A stretch of DNA of 64,000 nt from Rhizophagus irregularis (taxonomy: Eukaryota; Glomeromycota; Glomeromycetes; Glomerales; Glomeraceae), in assembly GCF_026210795.1 (NCBI RefSeq), contig NC_089450.1:2728001-2792000 (forward strand), given 5' to 3'. The stretch's first letter is position 1. Every line of letters begins with the position of its first letter. Made by a program: the position numbers and the translations under genes. Of the stretch, positions 4,250 to 54,498 are shown piece by piece. The notes beneath the pieces were generated by a model. The model searched no databases. It was not told the DNA's origin and saw only the letters and a program-made list of their open reading frames with translations.

Positions 4250-4990
4250 TTAATTATGGAAATGAAGCTAACAAAATCCTTCTTTCAAAAGTTCTTACCC
4301 CTTTTAAAGAGTGATATTGATCTTATACCTAACGTCATGTGGATTTGATGTTTACGTATTGTTGAAACTATTGGAAGAGCTCTTATCAATAGAATGGGCG
4401 TCCTTAAAATATAATAAAAAACATTAATAAATTAAAAAAACCTTTCCTTCTCCATTACTTACCTAAAGTCCTGATTGTAAAGCAACTCTAGCACCTACAA
4501 GTAGAAGAAACATCTCTTGTAATTAACAAACAGCAAAGAGTTATGCAGCTGTTTACTGAAGAAGAGCCAAAGAAAAAAAATTTGAGAAACCCTCCCATGG
4601 AAGCTAGCGAAAATTTAATTTCTTGGTGGGTATATATAAATTCTCTTTTCCTTTAAGAAAATTCTCTCTGGTGATTTCTTGGAATGTACTTGCATGGGTT
4701 AGTTTCAGAGATTTTTTTTATCTTTATAGAATGTGATAATCAAATATTTTTTATTTTAAGATCATCTTTTTGATTTGAAAAATAAATAATAAAGAAATAC
4801 AGAATAAAGACAAGAAAGGAATGAGAAAATAAAGATGATGATGAGAGGGAAAGATGATGATAAGAAGGATTGAGAACGAAAAGAATAAAAAAAACAAAGA
4901 TAAAATAAAATAGTAAAAAAAGAAGAAAAAGAAAAGAATTGATTAATAGGTTTCAAAAGCAATAATAATGGTAAATAAAAAAGAAAATCC
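4250..4990 (+). repeat. Arm A of a ~750 bp dispersed inverted repeat
   Basis: This block is the reverse complement, with many changes, of 17230-18000. Matching landmarks are TCTTATCAATAGAATGGGCG (about 4382) against its complement near 17914, the TATATATAAATTCTC box near 4632, the 'GTGATTTCTTGGAATGTACT' phrase near 4671, the GATGATGATG purine run near 4833 and TTAATAGGTTTCAAAAGCAA near 4944. It has no coding capacity. It contains a TATATAAA box and could be a promoter-bearing terminal repeat of a large element or two independent copies of one repeat. Confidence 0.55.
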
Positions 4991-20034: not shown

Positions 20035-20855
20035 TAGAGCTCCGAACAGGTCAGCCAAATTCAGGTAACCTGACTTGACCTGACCTGAAATTCAGATCAG
20101 GTATGAGATTTTTTAAAAAAATTCAGGTCAGGTATGAAGATTGACCTGACCTGATTGACCTGTTGACCTAAAACTATTGATTCTACTATATAATAAAAGT
20201 GAGTTGCAATACCGCAACTCACTTTTTTTATATAGAATTTATATAAAAAAGTAAATCGCAATACCGCAACTCACTTTTTTTATATAGAATTTATATAAAA
20301 AAGTGAATCGCAATACTGCAACTCACTTTTTTTATATAGAATCTATATAAAAAAGTGAATCGCAATACCGCAACTCACTTTTATTATATAGAATCTATAT
20401 AAAAAAGTGAATCGCAATACCGCAACTCACTTTTTTTATATAGATTCTATATAAAAAAGTGAATCGCAATACCGCAACTCACTTTTTTTATACAAAATCA
20501 ATATAAAAATGTTGAATCGCAATATTTCGAGAAAAAACGTTGCGAAAACGTTTTTTCATAATATTATATTAAAAAAATGTTTCGTAACGTTTTTTTTTTT
20601 GATATTTCAATAATAATGTTGCAAAAACATTTTTTTCATAATGTTATATTAAAAAAAACATTTTGCAATATTTTTTTTCAATATTTTAATAAAAAACGTT
20701 GCAAAAACGTTTTTTTCATAATATTATATTAAAAAAAAAAGTTTTGTACCATTTTTTTTCAATACTTTAATAAAAATTTTTCAGGTTTCAGGTCAGGTCA
20801 GGTCAAACAGACAACCTGATATAACCTGACCTGACCTGACCCATTCGGAGCTCTA
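20035..20855. mobile_element. Nested hAT-type MITE, 821 bp
   Basis: The terminal repeats TAGAGCTCCGAA and TTCGGAGCTCTA are perfect 12-bp inverses. They are flanked by a perfect 8-bp duplication GTTGGATC at 20027-20034 and 20856-20863. The subterminal zones are rich in CAGGTCAGG / CCTGACCTG. The centre is a palindromic minisatellite (20190-20520) followed by ACGTTGCAAAAACGT-like units. There is no ORF. Confidence 0.9.
20190..20520. repeat. Palindromic minisatellite, about six ~53-bp units
   Basis: Each unit contains GTGA(A/G)T(C/T)GC-AATACC-GCAACTCAC, a self-complementary hairpin of about nine pairs, separated by TTTTTTTATATAGAATCTATATAAAAAA, which is itself self-complementary. The array is therefore a string of hairpins inside the nested MITE. 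Confidence 0.8.
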
Positions 20856-21009
20856 GTTGGATCAATTCAGGTGACCCGTCGTCAGGTTGACCCGAAAATT
20901 TTGGGTCAGGTCATCAAATTTATGACCCAACCTTGGGTCAGATCACAGTTTGACCCGACCCATTGACCATTTGACCTGACATAATATTTCTGGTCAGATG
21001 GGTCAAATA

Positions 21010-21800
21010 TGTAAAAAAAACGCTGAAAACATTTTTTTTTGTATTACTATTAAGAAAAAACGTTTCAGCGTTTTTTCATATAAAATTATTAGAAAAAAAA
21101 TGCCAAAACGTTTTTTTTTGCATTATTATTAAGAAAAAACGTTTCAGCATTTTTTCATATAAAATTATTAAAAAAAAAATGCTGAAACGTTTTTTTTTTG
21201 CATTATTATTAAGAAAAACGTTTCAGCGTTTTTCATATAAAATTATTAGAAAAAAAATGCCAAAACGTTTTTTTTGTATTAATTATTACAGAAAAAACGT
21301 TTTGGCGTTTTTTCATATAAAATTATTAAAATAACATGAAACATTTTTTTTTTTGCATTATTATTGAGAAAAAATGTTTTGGCGTTTTTTCATATAAAAT
21401 TATTAGAAAAAAATGCCGAAATGTTTTTTTTTATATTAATTATTACAGAAAAAACGTTTTGGCATTTTTTCATATAAAATTATTTAAAAAAAATGCTGAA
21501 ATGTTTTTTTTTTGCATTATTATTAAGAAAAAACATTTTGGTGTTTTTCATATAAAATTATTAAAAAAAATGCTGAAACGTTTTTTTTTTGCATTATTAT
21601 TAAGAAAAAATGCTGAAAATGTTTTTTTTTGTATTAGTTGTTAAGAAAAAATGTTTTGGTGTTTTTTCATATAATAATATCAAAAAAAAATGCTGAAAAC
21701 ATTTTTTTATTGCAATACTATTAAGAAAAAACGTTTCGGTGTTTTTTCATATAATAAATATTAAAAAAATGCCAAAACATTACTTTTTAACAGAAAAATG
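21010..21800. repeat. Palindromic minisatellite, ~76-bp units
   Basis: About ten alternating units of AAAACGTTTCAGCGTTTTTTC and AAATGC(C/T)(A/G)AAACGTTTTTTT, separated by ATATAAAATTATTA and GCATTATTATTAAG, form repeated inverted pairs. Apparent ORFs through it have low-complexity Phe/Lys/Asn translations and are not genes. Confidence 0.75.
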
Positions 21801-24786: not shown

Positions 24787-26792
24787 TAGGGCTCTAATCG
24801 GTTCAGTTCAGTACGGTTTTTGCCAAAACTGAAACCGAACTGAATTGATCGGTAACGGTATTGCTAATTACCGAAACCGATCAGTTTCAGTAATCATAAA
24901 TACTGTTACCAACCGGTAATTACTGAAAACTGAACCGATTTACTGATTCATTATCAGATCAGTTTTAAAAACATTTCGCAACGTTTTTATTAAATTATCA
25001 TAAAAATGTTACGAAACGTTTTTTTAAATAAATTAATTGCCAATCTGCATGGGTGCGGCTGTTCAATGTATCACACACTTGATTGGCTGATCTATATATA
25101 ATTACGGAAAATTTTTTTTAAAAAAAAAAATTCTTTTTTTTCATTCTTGGAAATGGAGACGGGTAAGTGTCTCCAAAATTAATTTTTTTTTGTTTTTTTT
25201 ATGTAAGAACGCTTATTAACGTTCTTTTACTTCCTTTTTTTATAGATTTCAGCCGAAACTTGGAAATGGAGACCGGTGAGTATTTTTAAAAGGAGGAAGC
25301 GAGTTTTTTTTAGGGGTTTCTCATGTAAGAACGTTTATTAATGTTCTTTTACTTTTTTCCATTTTGTAGATTTCAGTCTGGGAGCTTGAAAATGAGGATC
25401 AGTAAGTTTTTTTAAAGGGAAAGCAGAGGAGGTTTTTTTTGTTTTTCTTTATGTAAGAACGTTTATTAATGTTCTTTTACTTTTTTTTGTAGATTTCGGC
25501 CTAGAGACTGGTGGTGAGTATTTTCAAAGGGGGAAGCGGACTTTTTAATCTTTCTTTATGTAAAAACATTTATTAACGTTCTTTTATTTCTATTTTTTTG
25601 TAGATTTCAGCCCGAAACTCAAATGGGGACTGGTGAATATTTTTAAAAAAGGGAAGTTGAGATTTTTTTTATTTTATTTATGCAAGAACGTTTATTAATG
25701 TTTTTTTACTACTTTTTTTTATAGATTTTAGCCCGGAATTTGGAAATAGAGATCGGTGGTGAGTATTTTCAAAGGGGAGAAGCGATTTTTTAATTTTTCT
25801 TTATGTAAGAACGTTTATTAACATTCTTTTATTTCTATTTTTTTTGTAGATTTCGGCCCAGAACTCAAATGGGGACCGGTGAGTATTTTTAAAAAGGAGA
25901 AATGGGTTTTTTTATTTTATTTATGCAAGAACATTTATTAACGTTCTTTTACTACTTTTTTTGTAGATTTTAGCCCAGAATTTGGAAATAGAGACCGGTG
26001 GTAAGTATTTTCAAAAGGGAGAAGCGATTTTTTAATTTTCTTTATGTAAGAATGCTTATTAACGTTCTTTTATTTCTATTTTTTTTGTAGATTTCAACCT
26101 GGAACTCAAATAGGGACTGGTGAGTATTTTTAAAAAGAGGAAATGTAGGTTTTTTTATTTTATTTATGCAAGAATGTTTATTAATGTTCTTTTACTACTT
26201 TTTTTGTAGATTTTAGCCCAGAATCCAGAAATAGAGACCGGTGGTGAGTATTTTCAAAGGGGAGAAGTGATTTTTTAATTTTTCTTTATGTAAGAACGTT
26301 TATTAACATTCTTTTACTTTTTTTTGTAGGTCTAATTAAATTTTAATAAAATTTAATTTAATACTAATAAAAAATGGCTTTAATATATTAAAACCGTCAT
26401 AAACAAATTACACTATTTATCAAAATAAATTACGTTTATAAAAATAAATTGCCTGTCAAAATATATTCACAACGTGAAAAGTTTGGCAAATCGGTTTGGT
26501 AAATTTACTGAAATGATCAGTAAAATCTACCGAAACTGACCAGTAAAATCTTCCAAAATGATCAGTAAAATCTACCGAAATGATCAGTAAAATTTACTGA
26601 AACTGATACTGAAAGTATCAGTTTGGTAATTCAGTTTGGTAAATCGCAAAACCGATACCGAAACCAAAATTACCGAAACTGATCAGTAAATTTACTGAAA
26701 GGTTCAGTTTGGTAAATCAGAATACCGAAACTGTTCTGATACCAAAACTGATCGGTTCGGTTTGGTAATTACTGAAACTGATCGGAGCCCTA
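24787..26792 (+). mobile_element. Nested hAT-type element (2006 bp) carrying an intron/mini-exon array
   Basis: The ends are TAGGGCTCTAATCGGTTCAG and its inverse CTGATCGGAGCCCTA. They are flanked by a perfect 8-bp duplication CCTAAACC at 24779-24786 and 26793-26800. The subterminal regions are dense in GGTAATTACCGAAACTGATC type repeats in both orientations. The middle (25140-26336) is an array of about ten units with splice-signal structure. No transposase ORF is present, so it must be moved in trans. Confidence 0.9.
25140..26336 (+). repeat. ~120-bp array of intron-like units with ~30-nt mini-exons
   Basis: Each unit reads exon / GTGAGTATTTT or GTAAGT donor / purine-rich AAAGGGGGAAGCG / T run / hairpin AAGAACGTTTATTAACGTTCTT / T-rich tract / TGTAG acceptor / next exon. 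Exons start ATTTCAGCC or ATTTTAGCC and end GAGACCG or GAGACCGGTG. I count about ten. The hairpin keeps its pairing despite base changes (G-U in some copies) and its loop supplies TTAAC, a plausible branch site. Exon lengths vary (about 21-34 nt) and the exon words also tolerate substitutions. Coding ability is unproved. Confidence 0.75.
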
Positions 26793-28966: not shown

Positions 28967-29676
28967 TTTGTTCAGAAAAGTATTAAAAGTAGATAAATCT
29001 TACACTCCAGCTAGTAATATATATGGCTTTTCTATGATTGACATTTTTGAAATTGAAAGTTTATTATATTTGATAGCAGAAATGCAATTGTGAGTTCAGT
29101 TCTCTAAATCTAAATATATTGTTCAAAATAATTTCCTGTAAAAAGAGTATTTAACTTGTTGCCAGATATTATGATCAAAGTGCCTGACAAATTTTTATAT
29201 CAGAAATTAAAAATTATTATTATTTTCTTATTCATTGAATAATACTTAAAATGAGTTACAAAGGATGTATTGAGTAAAGGATGTATGCAAAGGGATAGAT
29301 AAATTGATAAATTTAAATATTTAAAGCAAATCAAAGTCCTAATTGACGATTTCATCATAATGCCACATCATGTTCCCTATAAATATTAATTTGATCACTA
29401 AATTTAACTTTTTGATAAAGTATATCGAAGCTAATGATCAACAATAAAGTTGTATTTTTAATTTAGTAATACCATCAACATTTCGGACGCTCTGACGGTT
29501 CCTGCTAACTATAGCGGGCCATATCCTGTTGCACAATTAAATATATCTGAAACTAAGACCTGATCTGCATTCTGCATAGATAATATTACACAACAACTAT
29601 ATATACTCGAATAAAGGCGTTTAATTGGTATTTATACTATTTTTTTTAGAAAATATTCCAATAAAATTATTTAGTA
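28967..29676. other. Upstream region of the kinase gene; no gene seen
   Basis: AT-rich with one mixed island (about 29480-29530: CGGACGCTCTGACGG and AGCGGGCCATATCC). It presumably holds the promoter of the gene starting at 29677. No clear TATA box at a convincing distance was chosen. Confidence 0.4.
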
Positions 29677-32600
29677 ATGGGTCAAAGTAACGATAAAGGT
29701 AAAAGCATATAGCATGAATATAGTTGTCTATACAAATTGAAATTGCTCTAAATTTTTTTTCAAACCAAATTTGCAACATAATAAAACTAGTTTCAAGAAT
29801 TAAGAAAGATAAAGGTAAAAAAAATTATTTAACAGCTTGTAAATTATAAACATATAATTTAAATTTATTAAATTAATTCTAAAAATTATTTTACTATACT
29901 AGCTCGTAAGTAATAGATTATCTTATAATCGGAATGATAATTAAATTATTATTTATATAACCAAATAATTTATTTTATTATTATAGCTGGTAAGTTAATA
30001 GCTATTTTCTTTTATTGCATTTTACATGATATTTAAATAACTAAATTCTCAATTAATATAATTGTTTAGATAATTACGGTACTAATATTATAGAAAGTAA
30101 GTATTTAATTTTATATTAATCTAAAAGTATTATATATAATTTAAACTAATAATATTTATTTAAATTAGATTGTAAGTTACAGTATATACTTAATTTTATA
30201 TACAATTATAATATTTTATCTAATTAATTATAATTACTTTACTTTATAATTATTATTAATTAATAATGCTACAGGGTGTAAGTTATTTATTTAATATATT
30301 ATATTTAAATAATACTTACACATAATTTAAACTAAATTAATTCTTTATTTAAAAAATTGTTTTGTAATTCTTATAGTTGGTAAGTTATAAGTCATTTATT
30401 TAATTCTATTATATTTATATAATATTTACAAACTAAATTCTTTACTTAAAAAATTATTTATTTAATAATATAGGGAGTATATTATTCATTTAATTCTATT
30501 ATATTTATATAATATTACATATAATTTAAACTAACTAAATTCTTTATTTAAAAAATCATTCAAATATTTTAGAACGTAAGTAATTCTATTATATTTATAT
30601 AATATTTACATATAATTTAAACTAACTAAATTCTTTATTTAAAAAATTATTTTGTAATTTCTTTCAGTTGGTAAATTATAAGTCATTTATTTAATTCTAT
30701 TATATCTATATAATATTTACATATAATTTAAACTAACTAAATTCTTTATTTAAAAAATTATTCAAATATTTTAGAAAGTAAGTAATTCTATTATATTTAT
30801 AATATTTACATGTAATTTAAACTAACTAAATTCTTTATTTAAAAAATTATTCAAATATTTTAGAATGTAAGTAATTCTATTATATTTAAATAATATTTAC
30901 ATATAATTTAAACTAACTAAATTCTTTATTTAAAAAATTATTTATTTAATAATATAGGGAGTATGTTATTTATTTAATTCTATTACATTTATATAATATT
31001 TACATATAATTTAAACTAACTAAATTCTTTATTTAAAAAATTATTCAAATATCTTATATATTAGAACGTAAGTAATTCTATTATATTTATATAATATTTA
31101 CATATAATTTAAACTAGTAACTAAATTCTATTATTCAAATATTTTAGAATGTAAGTAATTCTATTATAATTATATAATATTTACATATATAATTTAAACT
31201 AACTAAATTCTTTATTTAAAAATTATTTATTTAATAATATAGGGGGTATGTTATAAGTTATATTTAATTCTATTATATAATATTTACATATAATTTAAAC
31301 TAACTAAATTATTTATTTAAAAAATTATTCAAATACTTTAGAATGTAAGTAAGTCAATTATATTTATATATTATTTACATATAATTTAACTAACTAAATT
31401 CTTTATTTAAAAAATTATTTATTTAATAATATAGCGAGTATGTTATAAGTTATATTTAATTCTATTATATAATATTTTACATATAATTTAAACTAACTAA
31501 ATTCTTTATTTAAAAAATCATTTTGTAATTTCTTTAAGTTGGTAAGTTATAAGTTATTTATTTAATTCTATTATATTAATATAATATTTACATATAATTT
31601 ATAACTAAATTCTTTATTTAAAAAATCATTCAAATATTTTAGAACGTAAGTAATTCTATTATATTTATATAATATTTACACTAACTAAATTCTTTACTTA
31701 AAAAATTATTTATTTAATAATATAGGGAGTATGTTATTCATTTAATTCTATTATATTAATATAATATTACATATAATTTAAACTAATTAAATTCTTAATT
31801 TAAAAAATTATTCAAATATCTTATATATTAGAACGTAAGTAATCCTATTATATTTATATAATATTTACATATATTTAAACTAACTAAATTCTTTATTTAA
31901 AAAATTATTTATTTAATAATATAGGAAGTATGTTATAAGTTATATTTAATTCTATTATATAATATTTACAAATAATTTAACTAACTAAATCCTTTATTTA
32001 AAAAATAATTTTGTAATTTCTTTTAGTTGGTAAGTTTTAAGTCATTTATTTAATTCCATTATATCTATATAATATTTACAATAACTGAATTCTTTGCTTA
32101 AAAAATTATTCAAATATTTTAGAACGTAAGTAATTCTATTATATTTATATAATATTTACATATAATTTAAACTAACTAAATTCTTTATTTAAAAAATAAT
32201 TTTGTAATTTCTTTCAGTTGGTAAGTTATAAGTTATTTATTTAATTCTATTATATTTATATAATATTTACACTAACTAAATTCTTTACTTAAAAAATTAT
32301 TTATTTAATAATATAGGAAGTATGTTATAAGTTATATTTAATTCTATTATATAATATTTACAAATAATTTAACTAACTAAATCCTTTATTTAAAAAATAA
32401 TTTTGTAATTTCTTTTAGTTGGTAAGTTTTAAGTCATTTATTTAATTCCATTATATCTATATAATATTTACAATAACTGAATTCTTTGCTTAAAAAATTA
32501 TTCAAATATTTTAGAACGTAAGTAATTCTATTATATTTATATAATATTTACATATAATTTAAACTAACTAAATTCTTTATTTAAAAAATAATTTTGTAAT

Positions 32601-35600
32601 TTCTTTCAGTTGGTAAGTTATAAGTTATTTATTTAATTCTATTATATTTATATAATATTTACACTAACTAAATTCTTTACTTAAAAAATCATTCAAATAT
32701 TTTAGAACGTAAGTAATTCTATTATATTTATATAATATTACATATAATTTAAACTAACTAAATTCTTTATTTAAAAAATAATTTTGTAATTTCTTTCAGT
32801 TGGTAAGTTATAAGTAATTCTATTATATTTATATATAATTTAAACTAACTAAATTCTTTATTTAAAAAATTATTCAAATATTTTAGAACGTAAGTAATTC
32901 TATTATATTTATATAATATTTACATATAATTTTAACTAACTAAATTCTTTGTTTAAAAAATTATTTTGTAATTTCTTTTAGTTGGTAAGTTATAAGTCAT
33001 TTATTTAATTCTATTATATTTATATAATATTTACAATAACTAAATCTTTATTTAAAAATTATTCAAATATTTTAGAACGTAAGTAATTCTATTAATATTT
33101 ACATATTATTTACATACAATTTAAATTAACTAAATTCATTATTTAAAAAATCATTCAAATATTTCAGAACGTAAGTAATTCTATTATATTTATATAATAT
33201 TTACATATAATTTAAACTAACTAAATTCTTTATTTAAAAAATAATTTTGTACTTTCTTTTAGTTGGTAAGTTTTAAGTCATTTATTTAATTCCATTATAT
33301 CTATATAATATTTACACTAACTAAATTCTTTACTTAAAAAATCATTCAAATATTTTAGAACGTAAGTAATTCTATTATATTTATATAATATTTACATATA
33401 ATATAAACTAACTAAATTCTTTATTTAAAAAATCATTCAAATATTTTAGAACGTAAGTAATTCTATTATATTTATATAATATTTACATATAATTTAAACT
33501 AACTAAATTCTTTATTTAAAAATCATTCAAATATTTTAGAACGTAAGTAATTCTATTATATTTAAATAATATTTACATATAATTTAAACTAACTAAATTC
33601 TTTATTTAAAAAATCATTCAAATATTTTAGAACGTAAGTAATTCTATTATATTTATATAATATTTACATACAATTTAAACTAACTAACTTCTTTATTTAA
33701 AAAATTATTTTGTAATTTCTTTCAGTTGGTAAATTATAAGTCATTTATTTAATTCTATTATATTTATATAATATTTACATATAATTTAAACTAACTAAAC
33801 TAAATTCTTTATTTAAAAAATAATTTTGTACTTTCTTTTAGTTGGTAAGTTTTAAGTCATTTATTTGATTCCATTATATCTATATAATATTTACACTAAT
33901 TAAATTCTTTACTTAAAAAATCATTCAAATATTTTAGAACGTAAGTAATTTTATTATATTTAAATAATATTTACATATAATTTAAACTAACTAAATTCTT
34001 TATTTAAAAAATAATTTTGTAATTTCTTTCAGTTGGTAAGTTATAAGTAATTCTATTATATTTATATAATATTTACATATAATTTAAACTAACTAAATTC
34101 TTTATTTAAAAAATAATTTTGTAATTTCTTTCAGTTGGTAAGTTATAAGTAATTCTATTATATTTATATAATATTTACATATAATTTAAACTAACTAAAT
34201 TCTTTATTTAAAAAATAATTTTGTAATTTCTTTCAGTTGGTAAGTTATAAGTAATTCTATTATATTTATATAATATTTACATACAATTTAAACTAACTAA
34301 ATTCTTTATTTAAAAAATTATTTTGTAATTTCTTTCAGTTGGTAAATTATAAGTCATTTATTTAATTCTATTATATTTATATAATATTTACATATAATTT
34401 AAACTAACTAAACTAAATTCTTTATTTAAAAAATAATTTTGTACTTTCTTTTAGTTGGTAAGTTTTAAGTCATTTATTTAATTCCATTATATCTATATAA
34501 TATTTACACTAATTAAATTCTTTACTTAAAAAATCATTCAAATATTTTAGAACGTAAGTAATTCTATTATATTTATATAATATTTACATATAATATAAAC
34601 TAACTAAATTCTTTATTTAAAAAATCATTCAAATATTTTAGAACGTAAGTAATTCTATTATATTTATATAATATTTACATATAATTTAAACTAACTAAAT
34701 TCTTTATTTAAAAAATCATTCAAATATTTTAGAACGTAAGTAATTCTATTATATTTAAATAATATTTACATATAATTTAAACTAACTAAATTCTTTATTT
34801 AAAAAATAATTTTGTAATTTCTTTCAGTTGGTAAGTTATAAGTAATTCTATTATATTTATATAATATTTACATACAATTTAAACTAACTAAATTCTTTAT
34901 TTAAACAATTATTTATTTATTAATATAGGGAGTATGTTATTCATTTAATTCTATTATATTTATATAATATTTACATGTAATTTAAAACTAACTAAATTAT
35001 TTAAAAAATTATTTTATAATTTCTTTTAGTTGGTAAGTTATAAGTCATTTATTTAATTCTATTATATTTATATAATATTTACATGTGATTTAAACTGACT
35101 AAATTCTTTAATTAAATAATTATTCAAATATTTTAGAACGTAAGTAATTCTATTACTGATATTTATATAATATTTACATATAATTTAAACTAACTAAATT
35201 CTTTATTTAAAAAATCATCCAAATATTTTAGAACGTAAGTAATTCTATTATATTTATATAATATTTTGCATATAATTTAAACTAACTAAATTCTTTATTT
35301 AAAAAATCATCCAAATATTTTAGAACGTAAGTAATTCTATTATATTTATATAATATTTTACATATAATTTAAACTAACTAAATTCTTTATTTAAAAAATC
35401 ATTTTGTAATTTCTTTAAGTTGGTAAGTTATAAGTTATTTATTTAATTCTATTATATTAATATAATATTTACATATAATTTAAACTAACTAAATTCTTTA
35501 TTTAAAAAATCATTCAAATATTTTAGAACGTAAGTAATTCTATTATATTTATATAATATTTACATGTAATTTAAAACTAACTAAATTATTTAAAAAATTA

Positions 35601-38600
35601 TTTTATAATTTCTTTTAGTTGGTAAGTTATAAGTCATTTATTTAATTCTATTATATTTATATAATATTTACATGTGATTTAAACTAACTAAATTCTTTAT
35701 TTAAATAATTATTCAAATATTTTAGAACGTAAGTAATTCTATTACTGATATTTATATAATATTTACATATAATTTAAACTAACTAAATTCTTTATTTAAA
35801 AAATCATCCAAATATTTTAGAACGTAAGTAATTCTATTATATTTATATAATATTTTACATATAATTTAAACTAACTAAATTCTTTATTTAAAAAATCATT
35901 TTGTAATTTCTTTAAGTTGGTAAGTTATAAGTTATTTATTTAATTCTATTATATTTATATAATATTTACACTAACTAAATTCTTTACTTAAAAAATCATT
36001 CAAATATTTTAGAACGTAAGTAATTCTATTATATTTATATAATATTACATATAATTTAAACTAACTAAATTCTTTATTTAAAAAATCATTTTGTAATTTC
36101 TTTAAGTTGGTAAGTTATAAGTTATTTATTTAATTCTATTATATTTATATAATATTTACATATAATTTAAACTAACTAAATTCTTTATTTAAAAAATCAT
36201 TCAAATATTTTAGAACGTAAGTAATTCTATTATATTTATATAATATTTACACTAACTAAATTCTTTACTTAAAAAATTATTTATTTAATAATATAGGGAG
36301 TATGTTATTCATTTAATTCTATTATATTTATATAATATTACATATAATTTAAACTAACTAAATTCTTAATTTAAAAAATTATTCAAATATTTTAGAACGT
36401 AAGTAATTCTATTATATTTATATAATATTTACATATATTTAAACTAACTAAATTCTTTATTTAAAAAATTATTTATTTAATAATATAGGAAGTATGTTAT
36501 AAGTTATATTTAATTCTATTATATAATATTTACAAATAATTTAACTAACTAAATCCTTTATTTAAAAAATAATTTTGTAATTTCTTTTAGTTGGTAAGTT
36601 TTAAGTCATTTATTTAATTCCATTATATCTATATAATATTTACAATAACTGAATTCTTTGCTTAAAAAATTATTCAAATATTTTAGAACGTAAGTAATTC
36701 TATTATATTTATATAATATTTACATATAATTTAAACTAACTAAATTCTTTATTTAAAAAATAATTTTGTAATTTCTTTCAGTTGGTAAGTTATAAGTTAT
36801 TTATTTAATTCTATTATATTTATATAATATTTACACTAACTAAATTCTTTACTTAAAAAATCATTCAAATATTTTAGAACGTAAGTAATTCTATTATATT
36901 TATATAATATTACATATAATTTAAACTAACTAAATTCTTTATTTAAAAAATCATTTTGTAATTTCTTTAAGTTGGTAAGTTATAAGTTATTTATTTAATT
37001 CTATTATATTTATATAATATTTACATATAATTTAAACTAACTAAATTCTTTATTTAAAAAATCATTCAAATATTTTAGAACGTAAGTAATTCTATTATAT
37101 TTATATAATATTTACACTAACTAAATTCTTTACTTAAAAAATTATTTATTTAATAATATAGGGAGTATGTTATTCATTTAATTCTATTATATTTATATAA
37201 TATTACATATAATTTAAACTAACTAAATTCTTAATTTAAAAAATTATTCAAATATTTTAGAACGTAAGTAATTCTATTATATTTATATAATATTTACATA
37301 TATTTAAACTAACTAAATTCTTTATTTAAAAAATTATTTATTTAATAATATAGGAAGTATGTTATAAGTTATATTTAATTCTATTATATAATATTTACAA
37401 ATAATTTAACTAACTAAATCCTTTATTTAAAAAATAATTTTGTAATTTCTTTTAGTTGGTAAGTTTTAAGTCATTTATTTAATTCCATTATATCTATATA
37501 ATATTTACAATAACTGAATTCTTTGCTTAAAAAATTATTCAAATATTTTAGAACGTAAGTAATTCTATTATATTTATATAATATTTACATATAATTTAAA
37601 CTAACTAAATTCTTTATTTAAAAAATAATTTTGTAATTTCTTTCAGTTGGTAAGTTATAAGTTATTTATTTAATTCTATTATATTTATATAATATTTACA
37701 CTAACTAAATTCTTTACTTAAAAAATCATTCAAATATTTTAGAACGTAAGTAATTCTATTATATTTATATAATATTACATATAATTTAAACTAACTAAAT
37801 TCTTTATTTAAAAAATAATTTTGTAATTTCTTTCAGTTGGTAAGTTATAAGTAATTCTATTATATTTATATATAATTTAAACTAACTAAATTCTTTATTT
37901 AAAAAATTATTCAAATATTTTAGAACGTAAGTAATTCTATTATATTTATATAATATTTACATATAATTTTAACTAACTAAATTCTTTATTTAAAAAATTA
38001 TTTTGTAATTTCTTTTAGTTGGTAAGTTATAAGTCATTTATTTAATTCTATTATATTTATATAATATTTACAATAACTAAATCTTTATTTAAAAATTATT
38101 CAAATATTTTAGAACGTAAGTAATTCTATTAATATTTACATATTATTTACATACAATTTAAATTAACTAAATTCATTATTTAAAAAATTATTCAAATATT
38201 TCAGAACGTAAGTAATTCTATTATATTTATATAATATTTACATATAATTTAACTAACTAAATTCTTTATTTAAAAAATAATTTTGTACTTTCTTTTAGTT
38301 GGTAAGTTTTAAGTCATTTATTTAATTCCATTATATCTATATAATATTTACACTAATTAAATTCTTTACTTAAAAAATCATTCAAATATTTTAGAACGTA
38401 AGTAATTCTATTATATTTATATAATATTTACATATAATATAAACTAACTAAATTCTTTATTTAAAAAATCATTCAAATATTTTAGAACGTAAGTAATTCT
38501 ATTATATTTATATAATATTTACATACAATTTAAACTAACTAAATTCTTTATTTAAAAAATCATTCAAATATTTTAGAACGTAAGTAATTCTATTATATTT

Positions 38601-41600
38601 AAATAATATTTACATATAATTTAAACTAACTAAACTAAATTCTTTATTTAAAAAATAATTTTGTACTTTCTTTTAGTTGGTAAGTTTTAAGTCATTTATT
38701 TAATTCCATTATATCTATATAATATTTACACTAATTAAATTCTTTACTTAAAAAATCATTCAAATATTTTAGAACGTAAGTAATTCTATTATATTTATAT
38801 AATATTTACATATAATATAAACTAACTAAATTCTTTATTTAAAAAATCATTCAAATATTTTAGAACGTAAGTAATTCTATTATATTTATATAATATTTAC
38901 ATATAATATAAACTAACTAAATTCTTTATTTAAAAAATCATTCAAATATTTTAGAACGTAAGTAATTCTATTATATTTATATAATATTTACATACAATTT
39001 AAACTAACTAAATTCTTTATTTAAAAAATCATTCAAATATTTTAGAACGTAAGTAATTCTATTATATTTAAATAATATTTACATATAATTTAAACTAACT
39101 AAACTAAATTCTTTATTTAAAAAATAATTTTGTACTTTCTTTTAGTTGGTAAGTTTTAAGTCATTTATTTAATTCCATTATATCTATATAATATTTACAC
39201 TAATTAAATTCTTTACTTAAAAAATCATTCAAATATTTTAGAACGTAAGTAATTCTATTATATTTATATAATATTTACATATAATATAAACTAACTAAAT
39301 TCTTTATTTAAAAAATCATTCAAATATTTTAGAACGTAAGTAATTCTATTATATTTAAATAATATTTACATATAATTTAAACTAACTAAATTCTTTATTT
39401 AAAAAATCATTCAAATATTTTAGAACGTAAGTAATTCTATTATATTTATATAATATTTACATATAATTTAAACTAACTAAATTCTTTATTTAAAAAATAA
39501 TTTTGTAATTTCTTTCAGTTGGTAAGTTATAAGTTATTTATTTAATTCTATTATATTTATATAATATTTACATATAATTTAAACTAAATTCTTTATTTAA
39601 AAAATAATTTTGTACTTTCTTTTAGTTGGTAAGTTTTAAGTCATTTATTTAATTCCATTATATCTATATAATATTTACACTAACTAAATTCTTTACTTAA
39701 AAAATCATTCAAATATTTTAGAACGTAAGTAATTCTATTATATTTATATAATATTTACATATAATATAAACTAACTAAATTCTTTATTTAAAAAATCATT
39801 CAAATATTTTAGAACGTAAGTAATTCTATTATATTTATATAATATTTACATACAATTTAAACTAACTAAATTCTTTATTTAAAAAATCATTCAAATATTT
39901 TAGAACGTAAGTAATTCTATTATATTTAAATAATATTTACATACAATTTAAACTAACTAAATTCTTTATTTAAACAATTATTTATTTAATAATATAGGGA
40001 GTATGTTATTCATTTAATTCTATTATATTTATATAATATTTACATGTAATTTAAAACTAACTAAATTATTTAAAAAATTATTTTATAATTTCTTTTAGTT
40101 GGTAAGTTATAAGTCATTTATTTAATTCTATTATATTTATATAATATTTACATGTGATTTAAACTAACTAAATTCTTTATTTAAATAATTATTCAAATAT
40201 TTTAGAACGTAAATAATTCTATTACTGATATTTATATAATATTTACATATAATTTAAACTAACTAAATTCTTTATTTAAAAAATCATCCAAATATTTTAG
40301 AACGTAAGCAATTCTATTATATTTATATAATATTTTACATATAATTTAAACTAACTAAATTCTTTATTTAAAAAATCATTTTGTAATTTCTTTAAGTTAT
40401 AAGTTATTTATTTAATTCTATTATATTAATATTTAATTCTATTATATTAATATAATATTTACATATAATTTAAACTAACTAAATTCTTTATTTAAAAAAT
40501 CATTCAAATATTTTAGAACGTAAGTAATTCTATTATATTTATATAATATTTACACTAACTAAATTCTTTACTTAAAAAATTATTTATTTAATAATATAGG
40601 GAGTATGTTATTCATTTAATTCTATTATATTTATATAATATTACATATAATTTAAACTAACTAAATTCTTAATTTAAAAAATTATTCAAATATTTTAGAA
40701 CGTAAGTAATCCTATTATATTTATATAATATTTACATATATTTAAACTAACTAAATTCTTTATTTAAAAAATTATTTATTTAATAATATAGGAAGTATGT
40801 TATAAGTTATATTTAATTCTATTATATAATATTTACAAATAATTTAACTAACTAAATCCTTTATTTAAAAAATAATTTTGTAATTTCTTTTAGTTGGTAA
40901 GTTTTAAGTCATTTATTTAATTCCATTATATCTATATAATATTTACAATAACTGAATTCTTTGCTTAAAAAATTATTCAAATATTTTAGAACGTAAGTAA
41001 TTCTATTATATTTATATAATATTTACATATAATTTAAACTAACTAAATTCTTTATTTAAAAAATAATTTTGTAATTTCTTTCAGTTGGTAAGTTATAAGT
41101 TATTTATTTAATTCTATTATATTTATATAATATTTACATATAATTTAAACTAAATTCTTTATTTAAAAAATTATTTTGTAATTTCTTTTAGTTGGTAAGT
41201 TATAAGTCATTTATTTAATTCTATTATATCTATATAATATTTACACCAACTAAATCTTTATTTAAAAAATTATTCAAATATTTTAGAACGTAAGAAATTC
41301 TATTATATTTATATAATATTTACATATAATTTAAACTAACTAAATTATTAAAAAATCATTTAAAATATTTTAGCCTGTAAGTACTTTAATTATGATAATT
41401 CTATATTTTTTATATTTAATTTATTATAATTATATAAAATTTACTCATTAAATTTTTTTAAAAATTTTGCTAATTTTTTTAGTTGGTAAGTTATAAGTTA
41501 TTATATGCTATTTATTTTAAATTTAAATTAATTAATTATTTTTTACATTAAAATCTTATAATTTCATTTAGAGTAAGTATGATAAGTATTATTTAATATT

Positions 41601-44245
41601 TAAATTTTTAATTGTAAATTTTATTTTAAATTTTAAATTTTAATTTAATTTCATTTTTATATTTAAAGATTTGGTACTAGTGAAAGTAAAATTGTGGATC
41701 AATTTATTTCTAAAAATAAATTAAAATGGGTTCCTTATAATAAATTTAAAAATATTGAATATATTGATAAAGGAGGATTTGGTACTATATATAAAGCTAA
41801 ATATAAAAGTATTGAAGTAATTTTTAAATATTTTGATTATCTTAATAATTCAGATGAAAGTTTGAATGAACTTTTAAATGAAGTATGATTAAATATTATT
41901 ATTTTTTTTTTAATATTATAATTTATTTATATTAATTAATTAATTATAATTTTTTTATAGTGGAAAATTATTAATTCATGTGGAATTATTAAAATATATG
42001 GATTTACGAAAGATCCAGTTACTTTGAATTATGTATTAATAATGGAATATATCAATAAGGGTAGTTTAAAAAGATGTTTAACAAAAATAACAAAAAATTG
42101 GAAACAAAAATTATTTTATTTATATCAAATTATTAAGGGTCTTAATGATATTCATGAAAAAGATCTTATTCATTATAGCTTACATAATGGTAATATTTTA
42201 TGTAACAAATATGAATGTAAAGAGGATATATATGGAATTTTTATTAGTGATTATTTAGGATTATATCAACTTGCCAAATCTTTTTTAAAAGAAAATGATA
42301 TCTATGGAGTTTTACCATTTATAGCACCTGAAATTTTAAGAGGTCAACCTTATACTCAAGCTAGTGATATATATTGTTTTTCAATAATTATGTGGGAATT
42401 TACATCTAAAATTCTACCATTTAATGATAAAGCACATGATCTTCAACTTGCTTTAAGTATTTGTAAAGGTGAACGTCCTGAAATTATTGAAAATATTCCA
42501 CAATGTTATATAGATTTAATGAAAAAATGCTGGGATGAAGATCCATTAAAAAGGCCATCTTCTAAAGAAGTTTTAAATATCATTGAAAATTGGATTTTTC
42601 GTCCTGAGAATAAGAAAATTGAAGATATTAATGAAGAATTAAAAAGCAATATTATGGAATTTATAAATGCACCAATTAAGCATAATAATCTAATTGTAAA
42701 ATCTCATCCAAAAGCATGCTATACGAGTCATTTACTTGATTTTACCAGTGAAGAATTAAATGAAATTCTGGAACTAGAAGATTCTCAAGGATTTCTTAAA
42801 TTTTTGGAACAAAAATATCAAAGTTCTCAAAATGAGTTTGATTATCACTCCATAAAACCGAAAATAAAGTGGGTTTCATATTCACAAATTAAAAATTTAA
42901 AAAAAATAGCAGAAGGAGGATTTGGTATTGTTTATAAAGCTTTAATTAATGGAGACATTGTTGCTATAAAAAAAGTTTTATATTCTCAAGAACCAAATAA
43001 ATATTTTTTAAATGAGGTAATTAATTTTTAAATTTATTTTTTTTAAAAATATTTAATATACTAATTTAAATTATAAAATTTTAGTTCAAATCACTTTATC
43101 AATGTTATGATAGTAAATTTGAATATATTATTAAATGTCATGGTATCACAAAAGATCCTATAACAAAAGAATTTATGTTTATAATGAAATATGCAAATGG
43201 AGGAGATTTACATAATTATTTACAAAAAAATTTTGCAGAGATTACATGGAAGAAAAAATTGCACATTTTGTGGCGAATTTCAGATGGGTATTTATAAATT
43301 AATGTTAATTAATAATGATTTTAAAATTATTTAAATAAAATTTTATTAATAACCAATTTTTTATTTTAGACTTCAAACTATTCATGAAAAAGATTTCGTA
43401 CATCGAGATTTTCATAGTGGAAATATATTGGTTGAAATAATTGAAAATGATTCATGCAAAATAGATCAATATCTAATTGGAGATTTAGGATTATCACAGC
43501 CTGCAAATGAAATTCCACATGATAGTAGTATATATGGAGTAATACCTTATATTGCACCAGAAATATTTAAAGGCGTCAAATTTTCTAAATCATCTGATAT
43601 TTATTGTATGGGCATGATTATGTGGGAATTAACAACTGGCTGTAAACCTTTTGCTAATGTTGAACATGATGTTGATTTAATTTATAAAATTATTGATGGA
43701 AAACGGCCTAATATTACTGACGACACTCCCGAAGATTTTGCTAATTTAATGAAAAAATGTTGGAATCCTGATCCTAAAAAGAGACCTTCAGCAACGGATG
43801 TTTGTGAAATTTTTAATTCTTGGTCAAATATGGAAATGGATGCTGAATATTTTAAACAAGCTGAAGAAATAAGATTAGAATTAATAAAATCAAAAATGCT
43901 TGGACCAGATTTTAATGAAAAACCTCATCCAAAAGCAATTTATACAAGTAGATCATTAAGTTCTTTAACTGGTTCACCTTCAATTATAACGTTAAATACG
44001 AAATCAAGTATGTAAACATTATTTTTTATACAAATTTGGACAATACTTACAACATTTTAACATTTAATAATTATTATCATCTTAGATAATAAACTTATTG
44101 AAGAATCTGAAGAATCAATCAACAATGAAGGTATTAAGTTATTTTTTAATTATAATAATCAGTACATAAAGGAATTTATTAATTACTTGATTCCTTTTCT
44201 TTAGAATATATTACAACAGAATATGAGTTTGATATATATAAATGA
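29677..44245 (+). CDS. Tandem pseudokinase-kinase with a 5' micro-exon array
   Basis: The kinase exons are 41669-41882, 41961-43016, 43085-43287, 43370-44007, 44086-44130 and 44205-44245; together they are 2197 nt, frame-consistent and end in TGA. Domain 1 has KGGFGTIYKA (41769-41798) and a retained Lys in VIFK, but its catalytic loop reads HYS (42171-42179) where HRD is expected and DYLG replaces DFG, so it is a predicted pseudokinase. Domain 2 has GGFGIVYKA, VAIKK, HRDFHSGN (from 43401) and DLG (43482), with YIAPE and KRPSA, so it should be active. The HPKA(C/I)YTS motif after each domain is typical of Glomeromycotina TKL-like kinases. Upstream, candidate exons 29677-29698 (MGQSNDK) and 29791-29814 plus about 120 3-nt microexons and a 1-nt exon at 41572 give a continuous frame. 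The kinase part is solid; the 5' part is a model. Confidence 0.7.
29903..41572 (+). repeat. 11.7 kb array of ~120 introns with 3-nt microexons
   Basis: Every unit has the form ...TAG-NNN-GTAAGT... The dominant junctions are TTTTAG-AAC-GTAAGTAATTC, TTTC(A)AG-TTG-GTAAGTTATAAG and ATATAG-GGA(or GAA)-GTATGTTAT. Divergent edge units have CTC (29903-29905), CTG (29987), AAA (30094), ATT (30169), GGT (30275) and CCT (41374). Introns are roughly 70-110 nt (88 in the commonest type). Most carry a hairpin TATTATA-TTTA-TATAATA near the donor and an ACTAACTAAA branch-site word, then a T-rich acceptor. I counted about 120 junctions by hand, with one broken unit near 40394. The last junction (41570-41574) leaves a single A. 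Higher-order duplications of 865 bp and about 5.04 kb are visible. It may be a true micro-exon region, a set of recursive-splice points within one long intron, or a satellite derived from an intron; the conserved 3-nt spacing favours the first two. Confidence 0.85.
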
Positions 44246-53649: not shown

Positions 53650-54498
53650 TAGAGATGCGATCCAGATGAAATTTTACAATCCGTGATATCATAGGATTAA
53701 ATTCGGATAATCCAGATTAACTTCAAATTTTGGGTATCTCGGCATCCAACGATCGTACAGGGATGTACTATAGCTCATTCGAATCGTTGCATTGAGACGA
53801 TTCGAATGAGCTATAGTACATCTCTGTACGATCACTAGATGCCGAGATAATTGGCAAAACGTGAAACATCGGCATTTTTATTTTACGATCATGCAAAATT
53901 TTACGTTTTGCCGAATATCTCGGCATCTAGTGATCGTACAGAGATGCATAATAGCTCATTCGAATCGTCTAAGTGCAACGATTCGAATGAGCTATTGTGC
54001 ATCCCTGTACGATCGTTTGATGCCGAGATATTCGGCAAACCGTCAAAAATCGGTAGTATCGTAAATAAAAAATGCTGATTTTTGACGGTTTGCCGAATAT
54101 CTGTGCATCCAGTGATCGTACAGAGATGCACAATAGCTCATTCAAATCGTCTCATTACGACGATTCGAATGAGCTATTGTGCATCCCTGTACGATCGTTT
54201 GATGCCGAGATATTCGGCAAACCGTCAAAAATCGGTAGTATCGTAAATAAAAAATGCTGATTTTTGACGGTTTGCCGAATATCTGTGCATCCAGTGATCG
54301 TACAGAGATGCACAATAGCTCATTCAAATCGTCTCATTACGACGATTTGAATGAGCTATTGTGCATCTCTGTACGATCGTTGGATGCTGTTTCAGATTAA
54401 AACGGATATCCTTAATCCATCCGGATGCATCCATTATCCGTTCGGATCGGATGGATAGGCGGATGATCCGAATTTTCGGATTTCAGATCGCATCTCTA
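53650..54498. mobile_element. hAT-type MITE made of large palindromes, 849 bp
   Basis: The terminal repeats TAGAGATGCGATC and GATCGCATCTCTA are perfect 13-bp inverses. They are flanked by a perfect 8-bp duplication ACTCAAAA at 53642-53649 and 54499-54506. The interior has four long near-perfect palindromes (53736-53849, 53906-54040, 54081-54223, 54267-54390), each centred on GAGCTATTGTGCAT / TCATTCGAATCGT arms, with a 182-bp direct period in the second half. The ORFs in both strands here are by-products of the palindromes. Confidence 0.88.

Follow-up and report, generated by a model that had tools for sequence, protein, structure and literature searches.

Recursive splice sites act in sequence with their neighbours and leave 0 nt behind, and introners are dispersed into many genes. 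Very small exons and closely spaced splice sites have been described in several systems, summarized here from the available text of each source. The micro-exon genes (MEGs) of schistosomes contain 10–20 very short exons of 6–81 bp (3–81 bp in the abstract), mostly 15 bp, and introns of 0.1–5 kb (PMC10526429). A 1-nt exon is constitutively spliced in APC11 of Arabidopsis (PMC4674806), another is found in plant VPS55 (PMC8831610), and a 3-bp exon is alternatively spliced in homothorax of Drosophila (PMC7392893). Introner-like elements of fungi are present as many near-identical short introns per genome (PMC4457414), and in stwintrons, neighbouring splice sites act in sequence (PMC8469720). The array described here is located in Rhizophagus irregularis (Glomeromycota), in a 64,000-nt stretch of contig NC_089450.1 (NCBI RefSeq assembly GCF_026210795.1, positions 2,728,001 to 2,792,000, forward strand), which is referred to as the window and provides all coordinates below unless a contig is named. 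It is composed of about 120 short introns separated by exons of 3 nt, and we consider it probable (about 0.87) that it is coding sequence of a tandem-kinase gene, the triplets and a final A being joined in order and translated.

The array (29903..41485, plus strand) contained 120 usable 3-nt exons, from CTC (29903..29905) to TTG (41483–41485), each having an AG before and a donor after it, with GT-AG introns of approximately 90 nt in between. Within 29601–41700, 119 of the 123 donor-like words (GTAAGT-like) were located exactly 3 nt past the nearest AG. The same spacing was observed for 4/111 words on the plus strand and 4/82 on the minus strand of the remaining window, and for 1/114 on the minus strand of the array itself. 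These counts confirm the tandem array of about 120 AG-NNN-GT junctions that had been proposed in an initial annotation of this DNA, and the diverged edge units keep the junction, as was also noted there. The three-base spacing, described there as invariable, holds for the 120 junctions, but not for the last one (41572, 1 nt) or for one lost junction in a 213-nt intron (40304..40516), in which a unit near 40396 lacks its junction and the preceding unit has the donor GTAAGC (40301). The two donors listed there, GTAAGT and GTATGT, are found at most of the 121 junctions matched by a regular expression (99 and 14, respectively), the GTAAGC unit being an exception.

Units were spaced by 83–116 nt, except for one spacing of 75 and one of 216 nt, and the commonest triplets were AAC (55), TTG (40), GGA (8), and GAA (5). 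The first exon and the next four (CTG at 29987, AAA at 30094, ATT at 30169, and GGT at 30275) belong to a stretch read as A-P-E-N-W-F. Three unit classes (AAC, TTG, and GGA types) had different flanks, and the flanks on both sides of the triplet covaried by class. The introns were of the U2 type, having GT...AG ends, GTRAGT-like donors, and a branch word before the acceptor. One additional candidate, AG-CTT-GTAAAT at 29836, would require a 21-nt intron, its donor is not conserved in locus L019, and it is probably a decoy.

In the initial annotation, the array was placed upstream of a kinase. It does adjoin kinase exons, but in our gene model it is internal to the kinase gene and part of its predicted coding sequence, with two exons preceding it and the frame closing after it. 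Exon 1 (29677..29698, plus strand, 22 nt, ATGGGTCAAAGTAACGATAAAG) begins with ATG and ends in phase 1, and its donor (GTAAAAGCATAT) is similar in paralogs. It is followed by an ordinary 92-nt intron (29699..29790) and by exon 2 (29791..29814, 24 nt), which has phase 1 on both sides. Throughout the 120 triplets, phase 1 contained no stop codons, and phase 2, which was rejected, contained 30; when the order of the triplets was shuffled, 161/20,000 arrangements remained open. The array is followed by the 1-nt exon A at 41572 (TTTAG/A/GTAAGT), which makes the codon G-A-A with the neighbouring exons, and by the first kinase exon (41669..41882, FGTSESKIVDQF...KWVPYNKF). The latter is in frame only with the 1-nt exon (...PF-E-FGTSESKIVDQF...KWVPYNKF); without it, the kinase exon is out of frame both when every triplet is retained and when every one is skipped. 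The last junction was read as a 1-nt exon because only this keeps the frame in the model; a TAA triplet at 41574, which was tried as the last exon, breaks the frame, whereas the 1-nt exon fits. The remaining exons, all on the plus strand, are 41961..43016 (remainder of kinase domain 1 and beginning of kinase domain 2), 43085..43287 (kinase domain 2), 43370..44007 (kinase domain 2 and the C-terminal part), 44086..44130 (C-terminal), and 44205..44245 (last exon, carrying the stop codon). The complete model of 129 exons and 867 codons is open and has two protein-kinase domains (Pfam Pkinase / PK_Tyr_Ser-Thr, two stretches each, E 1.1e-79 and 2.6e-76).

The genome (146.7 Mb, 32 contigs) was searched for paralogous arrays, and a 201-base piece of the array gave at least 430 matches. 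Sixteen further array loci were fetched, and two of them having no kinase-exon anchor (L032 and L035) were excluded from the statistics, which were based on 15 arrays. In 14 of the 16 loci, the array is on the coding strand and followed by a similar 1-nt exon and kinase exon. The kinase-exon anchor and the 1-nt-exon anchor were each found at 21 places in the genome (control matches, 0), and both were present at 19 of 23 places counted by coordinates; diverged members, e.g., L030, escape the first anchor. The opening triplets were similar in most arrays (CTC/CTT, TTG/CTG, AAA, ATT, GGT), and phase 1 gave E-N-W near the start in 10 of the 15, and K-N-W or Q-N-W in L025 and L023; A-L-E-N-W-[FY] is one such region of the predicted N-termini. 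The last triplet was TTG in 13/15 arrays, and the 1-nt exon was AG/A/GTAAGT in 14/15, L030 having AG/G/GTAAAT. In 11 genes assembled through the kinase exon (the window and ten paralogs; L023, L025, L030, and L036 were not among them), exon 1 was 19, 22, or 31 nt long, i.e., 1 mod 3 in all 11, and exon 2 was 24 nt in the nine where the script located it. As is typical of protein-coding exons, the arrays had an open frame, were in frame with conserved flanking exons, and avoided stops, with L026 and L038 as exceptions.

Several loci had exons or donors of other types. L026 (C5:3420500–3430499, minus strand) has two TTG units with GCAAGT donors, which points to a tolerance for GC-AG introns in the arrays. 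Rare candidates for 6-nt exons (AGAGTA, GGAGTA), also multiples of 3, were seen in L040 (at about 2890 and 3035) and L034 (at about 5342), and a 12-nt candidate (ATATTTATGAAT) in L025. L035 contains six units in a cluster, and L024 is a short array of 23 units. In L032 and L033 (C13:288500–308499, minus strand), a long array with the same unit type is followed by a coiled-coil frame with no kinase exon, and the candidates for its last exons are TTACTA (6 nt) and AGG.

A phase-1 codon takes one base from the end of a triplet and two from the start of the next, which lies about 90 nt away in the DNA, and thus exists only if the exons are joined. In the 15 arrays (629 three-base exons, leading CTT before CTC left out), one stop codon was found in 614 adjacent pairs (0.16%). 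Pairing each triplet with its 2nd–10th neighbour gave 16–28 stops, reverse-order pairing gave 31, and 5,000 shuffles of the order within arrays averaged 22.6 stops and never gave fewer than 10. Stop rates were 2.7–5.9% at lags 2–30 and 1.4–3.9% at lags 31–40, where pairs were few. When introns >130 nt and repeated sequences were left out and the test was stratified by array, 492 unique pairs had 0 stops vs 24.05 expected (z = −6.6; unstratified Fisher P 4.5e-17). The sole adjacent stop (L026) falls across a 189-nt gap holding an uncounted TTG unit with the donor GCAAGT. Triplets ending in T were followed by those starting with AT or GG (33 and 41 unique pairs), which gives Tyr and Trp, and never, save for one L026 pair, by those starting with AA, AG, or GA. 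Phase 0 was also almost free of stops (1/629), but it misfits the flanking exons and was rejected for the kinase arrays. In the second kinase subfamily (L039, L040, L041, and L043; 151 triplets), 132 adjacent pairs had 0 stops, with five-junction L042 uncounted and pairs over introns >135 nt left out; this set adds less, since lagged stops were also few there (0–3 per array and lag). Selection against stops was thus seen only between adjacent units. This supports ordered joining and translation of the triplets over evolutionary time, with little skipping, and we see no other explanation. The initial proposal of a spliced array in which every unit contributes a codon gains support from this test, and the support is of an evolutionary kind.

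In base composition, the triplets are not intron-like, their G+C content at positions 1/2/3 being 0.29/0.25/0.55 vs 0.084 in intron bodies. The introns of ≤130 nt in the 15 arrays (n = 593) had a median length of 92 nt, and a branch-like CTAA[CT] was present in 474/593 vs a mean of 112 in Markov-resampled controls; an exact pattern with a fixed branch-to-AG spacing was uninformative (6 matches vs 8 in the control). Where 80-base flanks were identical, the triplets differed in 72% of 588 pairs between arrays and in 16.5% of 387 pairs within an array. Per base, the difference between arrays was 0.37–0.39 for triplets vs 0.15–0.20 for outer intron positions (an upper bound, indels being counted), and within arrays it was 0.13–0.15 vs 0.10–0.16, with no clear excess. 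Diversifying selection on the triplets is only possible, because under the stricter controls the excess is about 2-fold between arrays and unclear within them.

Each unit would consist of a short U2-type intron and one 3-nt exon, and the spliceosome would remove about 120 introns. Neighbouring sites overlap, and where acceptor and donor are just 3 nt apart, the two adjacent splicing complexes would clash, so the introns would leave largely one after another, most simply from 5′ to 3′ during transcription. With a median of 92 nt, the introns are short enough for intron definition to be possible. The 120 triplets and the single A would, if complete, add 361 nt and, read in phase 1, give a variable stretch of about 120 residues, which starts with E-N-W in most paralogs and ends at the kinase domain. 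Judging from the repeat structure, arrays may grow and shrink by tandem gain and loss of units (intron and codon) through unequal exchange, and since a whole unit equals one residue, the frame would always be kept. In canonical kinases of the same genome, NFENW-TSGN...WIPY was found as one block at the 150 scored places (one with an internal TAG). Because this block is undivided, and from the likeness of the motifs, the point at which the kinase array grew appears to lie between the W and the T-S-G of this motif.

Several observations weigh against this reading. Of the 15 arrays, five (L023, L025, L028, L030, and L036) lack E-N-W. Two of the 11 genes assembled through the kinase exon are not open: in L026, the stop falls where the script omitted the GC-donor unit, and in L038, the last triplet, TTT, creates a TAA codon spanning the 1-nt exon. 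The script did not locate exon 2 in L022 and L038, whose models hence lack it, and exon 1 of L025 has no ATG; L025 and L038 may be decayed copies. For public proteins, 177 sequences were retrieved from a set of 5.8 billion (120 of 174 matches listed and 57 from a second search). Among the matches listed, neither the exon-1 start nor [EKQD][ND]W[FYW] within the first 300 residues was found in any of the 177 (0/177), and 28 start with MDQF, within the kinase exon. When the assembled N-terminus was used as a query, the matching proteins covered the kinase exon only. The sole retrieved public model that joins 3-nt exons, P0012 (DAOM 181602), uses phase 0. It starts with MKKIGGNGNNNNNNNNL, and 15 residues from the second K match L025 3-nt exons in order, other units being skipped and the first kinase exon being absent from the model; the match is suggestive only, because the peptide is of low complexity. 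In addition, the available text on a published annotation with Nanopore cDNA (PMC10234402) is silent on such arrays. That work drew on Illumina and Nanopore cDNA and, for one analysis, set an upper limit of 3,000 nt on introns; standard splice-aware mapping is unlikely to position exons of 3 nt.

Another public model, P0024 of Rhizophagus diaphanus, has a similar G/M/I-rich N-terminus, joined to a related kinase. This species may thus have a comparable array, of which P0024 would be a phase-0 reading.

The whole array might also be removed as one long intron or through a recursive ladder, leaving no triplet in the mRNA, with the AG-NNN-GT junctions serving merely as splice points on the way. 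Each junction does have strong sites on either side, and long introns are known to be spliced recursively, but if the array and the 1-nt exon are skipped, the frame set by exons 1 and 2 does not continue into the kinase exon, and the triplets differ sharply from introns in base composition. Avoidance of stops between neighbours would be impossible if the triplets never met in the mRNA. We regard this as very unlikely, and the ladder without retained bases, which the initial annotation had offered as the alternative to one codon per unit, is disfavoured on the same ground, as it predicts no such avoidance. The tandem arrangement of many near-identical units, spaced by about 91–107 nt, would suit a functionless satellite-like repeat, whose splice-like words were inherited from a founder unit. 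For such a repeat, however, the persistence of AG-NNN-GT in three unit classes with different flanks and in diverged edge units, the location of 14 of the 16 further loci on the coding strand before a similar kinase exon, and the missing stops between neighbours are all unexpected, and the probability is slight. An assembly artefact, i.e., a collapsed or expanded repeat, is hardly credible: copy number could be off in a Nanopore assembly of an AT-rich tandem repeat, but arrays of this design, differing in their triplets and length, are present on many contigs, and the 15 ordered residues of P0012 come from another annotation.

One further alternative concerns the origin only and is compatible with translation. 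Introner-like insertions, rather than tandem duplication, could have split an existing exon codon by codon. The introns were probably gained here, given the undivided block in canonical kinases, and the high share of between-array pairs with identical flanks but different triplets would also fit insertion. However, the covariation of flanks by class implies that each triplet was copied jointly with the sequence on both of its sides, identical flanks within an array mostly carry identical triplets, and an exact spacing of one codon is not expected from insertions, so we hold this origin to be unlikely. We prefer tandem duplication of units.

Across the genome, a pattern of three GTAWGT-AG-NNN junctions in a row was matched 1,641 + 1,596 times (3,237 in total; reversed control, 22 + 0), and GTRAGT donors with longer gaps gave 1,211 + 1,081 matches (control, 57 + 0). 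The 637 units of the 15 arrays yield 427 matches of the GTAWGT pattern, and the genome-wide number of units is roughly estimated at 4,800. All copies with checked context were in tandem arrays and, apart from L032 and from L035 with its uncertain context, in kinase-type genes; no search was aimed at dispersed single copies. A sequence-unrelated array was found at C1:1722500–1735500 (L045, L044, and L046), with the triplets ACC, AAT, AAC, TGA and others in units of about 90–123 nt. L044 contains 52 chained triplets, with further ones in L045, and the acceptor of the array is ...AATTACCAG. The array lies ahead of a coiled-coil frame of 931 residues that carries an AIG1 GTPase domain (Pfam, E 1.7e-17); the start of this AIG1-type gene was not found. 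Stops were present in phases 0 and 1 and absent from phase 2, which, by our reading, also fits the next small exon and acceptor. The adjacency test is uninformative for L044, because phase 2 was stop-free at every lag tested. As the AIG1-type array is unrelated in sequence to the kinase arrays, this kind of array seems to have had two or more separate origins.

From this distribution, it may be tentatively suggested that single-codon exon arrays are an architecture of their own in this fungus, with 3-nt exons that number in the thousands and occur in two or more kinase subfamilies and, independently of these, in a GTPase gene of the AIG1 type. Such arrays could act as a frame-safe generator of diversity, in which triplets change fast and introns provide homology for recombination, resulting in hypervariable N-termini of kinases and GTPases and perhaps in a recognition repertoire.

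Other tandem repeats were observed in the window. Units of about 122 nt at 25163–26325 resemble an intron and a small exon (TTTTTTGTAG ... GTGAGTATTTT), and their exon lengths seem variable. Repeats with periods of 52, 79/157, and 182 nt are located at 20186–21781 and 53735–54387, the last with inverted segments.

If the array is confirmed in RNA, over 100 single-codon exons in a row are joined by the spliceosome within one transcript, which, to our knowledge, is far beyond the limits usually accepted for neighbouring splice sites. The arrays would then offer a natural system in which to test intron definition and splicing order, as well as a frame-safe route to protein diversification. Several thousand such exons are estimated genome-wide, and the retrieved public models do not show them in this form; given such confirmation, gene models of arbuscular mycorrhizal fungi may miss whole protein segments. 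In the literature searched, which lacks most subscription-journal papers, we found no account of single-codon exons in long runs, and searches for microexons in Rhizophagus or fungi and for this kinase family yielded nothing relevant.

Compared by architecture, not homology, the array is like schistosome MEGs in having runs of tiny exons, mostly multiples of 3, that encode variable proteins and are hard for automatic annotation, as far as the available text describes them (PMC10526429). It differs in having 120 exons of exactly 3 nt instead of 10–20 that are mostly 15 bp, near-identical tandem introns of about 90 nt instead of introns of up to 5 kb, and a location in a kinase gene. Unlike introners, the copies checked in context are tandem; they stand a single codon from one another and occur in two kinase subfamilies, while the AIG1-type gene has an unrelated repeat with the same plan. 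As with recursive sites and stwintrons, neighbouring splice sites here would have to act in sequence. Yet no outer intron has its acceptor, branch point, or donor split by an internal one, and AG does not abut GT without an exonic base; each junction has a complete acceptor and donor and leaves 3 nt under coding constraint. The exons of homothorax, APC11, and VPS55 demonstrate that exons this small can be spliced, and in the available text each is a lone tiny exon of a gene that is otherwise ordinary, with no more than two small exons side by side. Isolated 3-nt and 1-nt exons are thus already known, and what appears new, as judged from sequence, is a run of about 120 single-codon exons near the start of a kinase gene.

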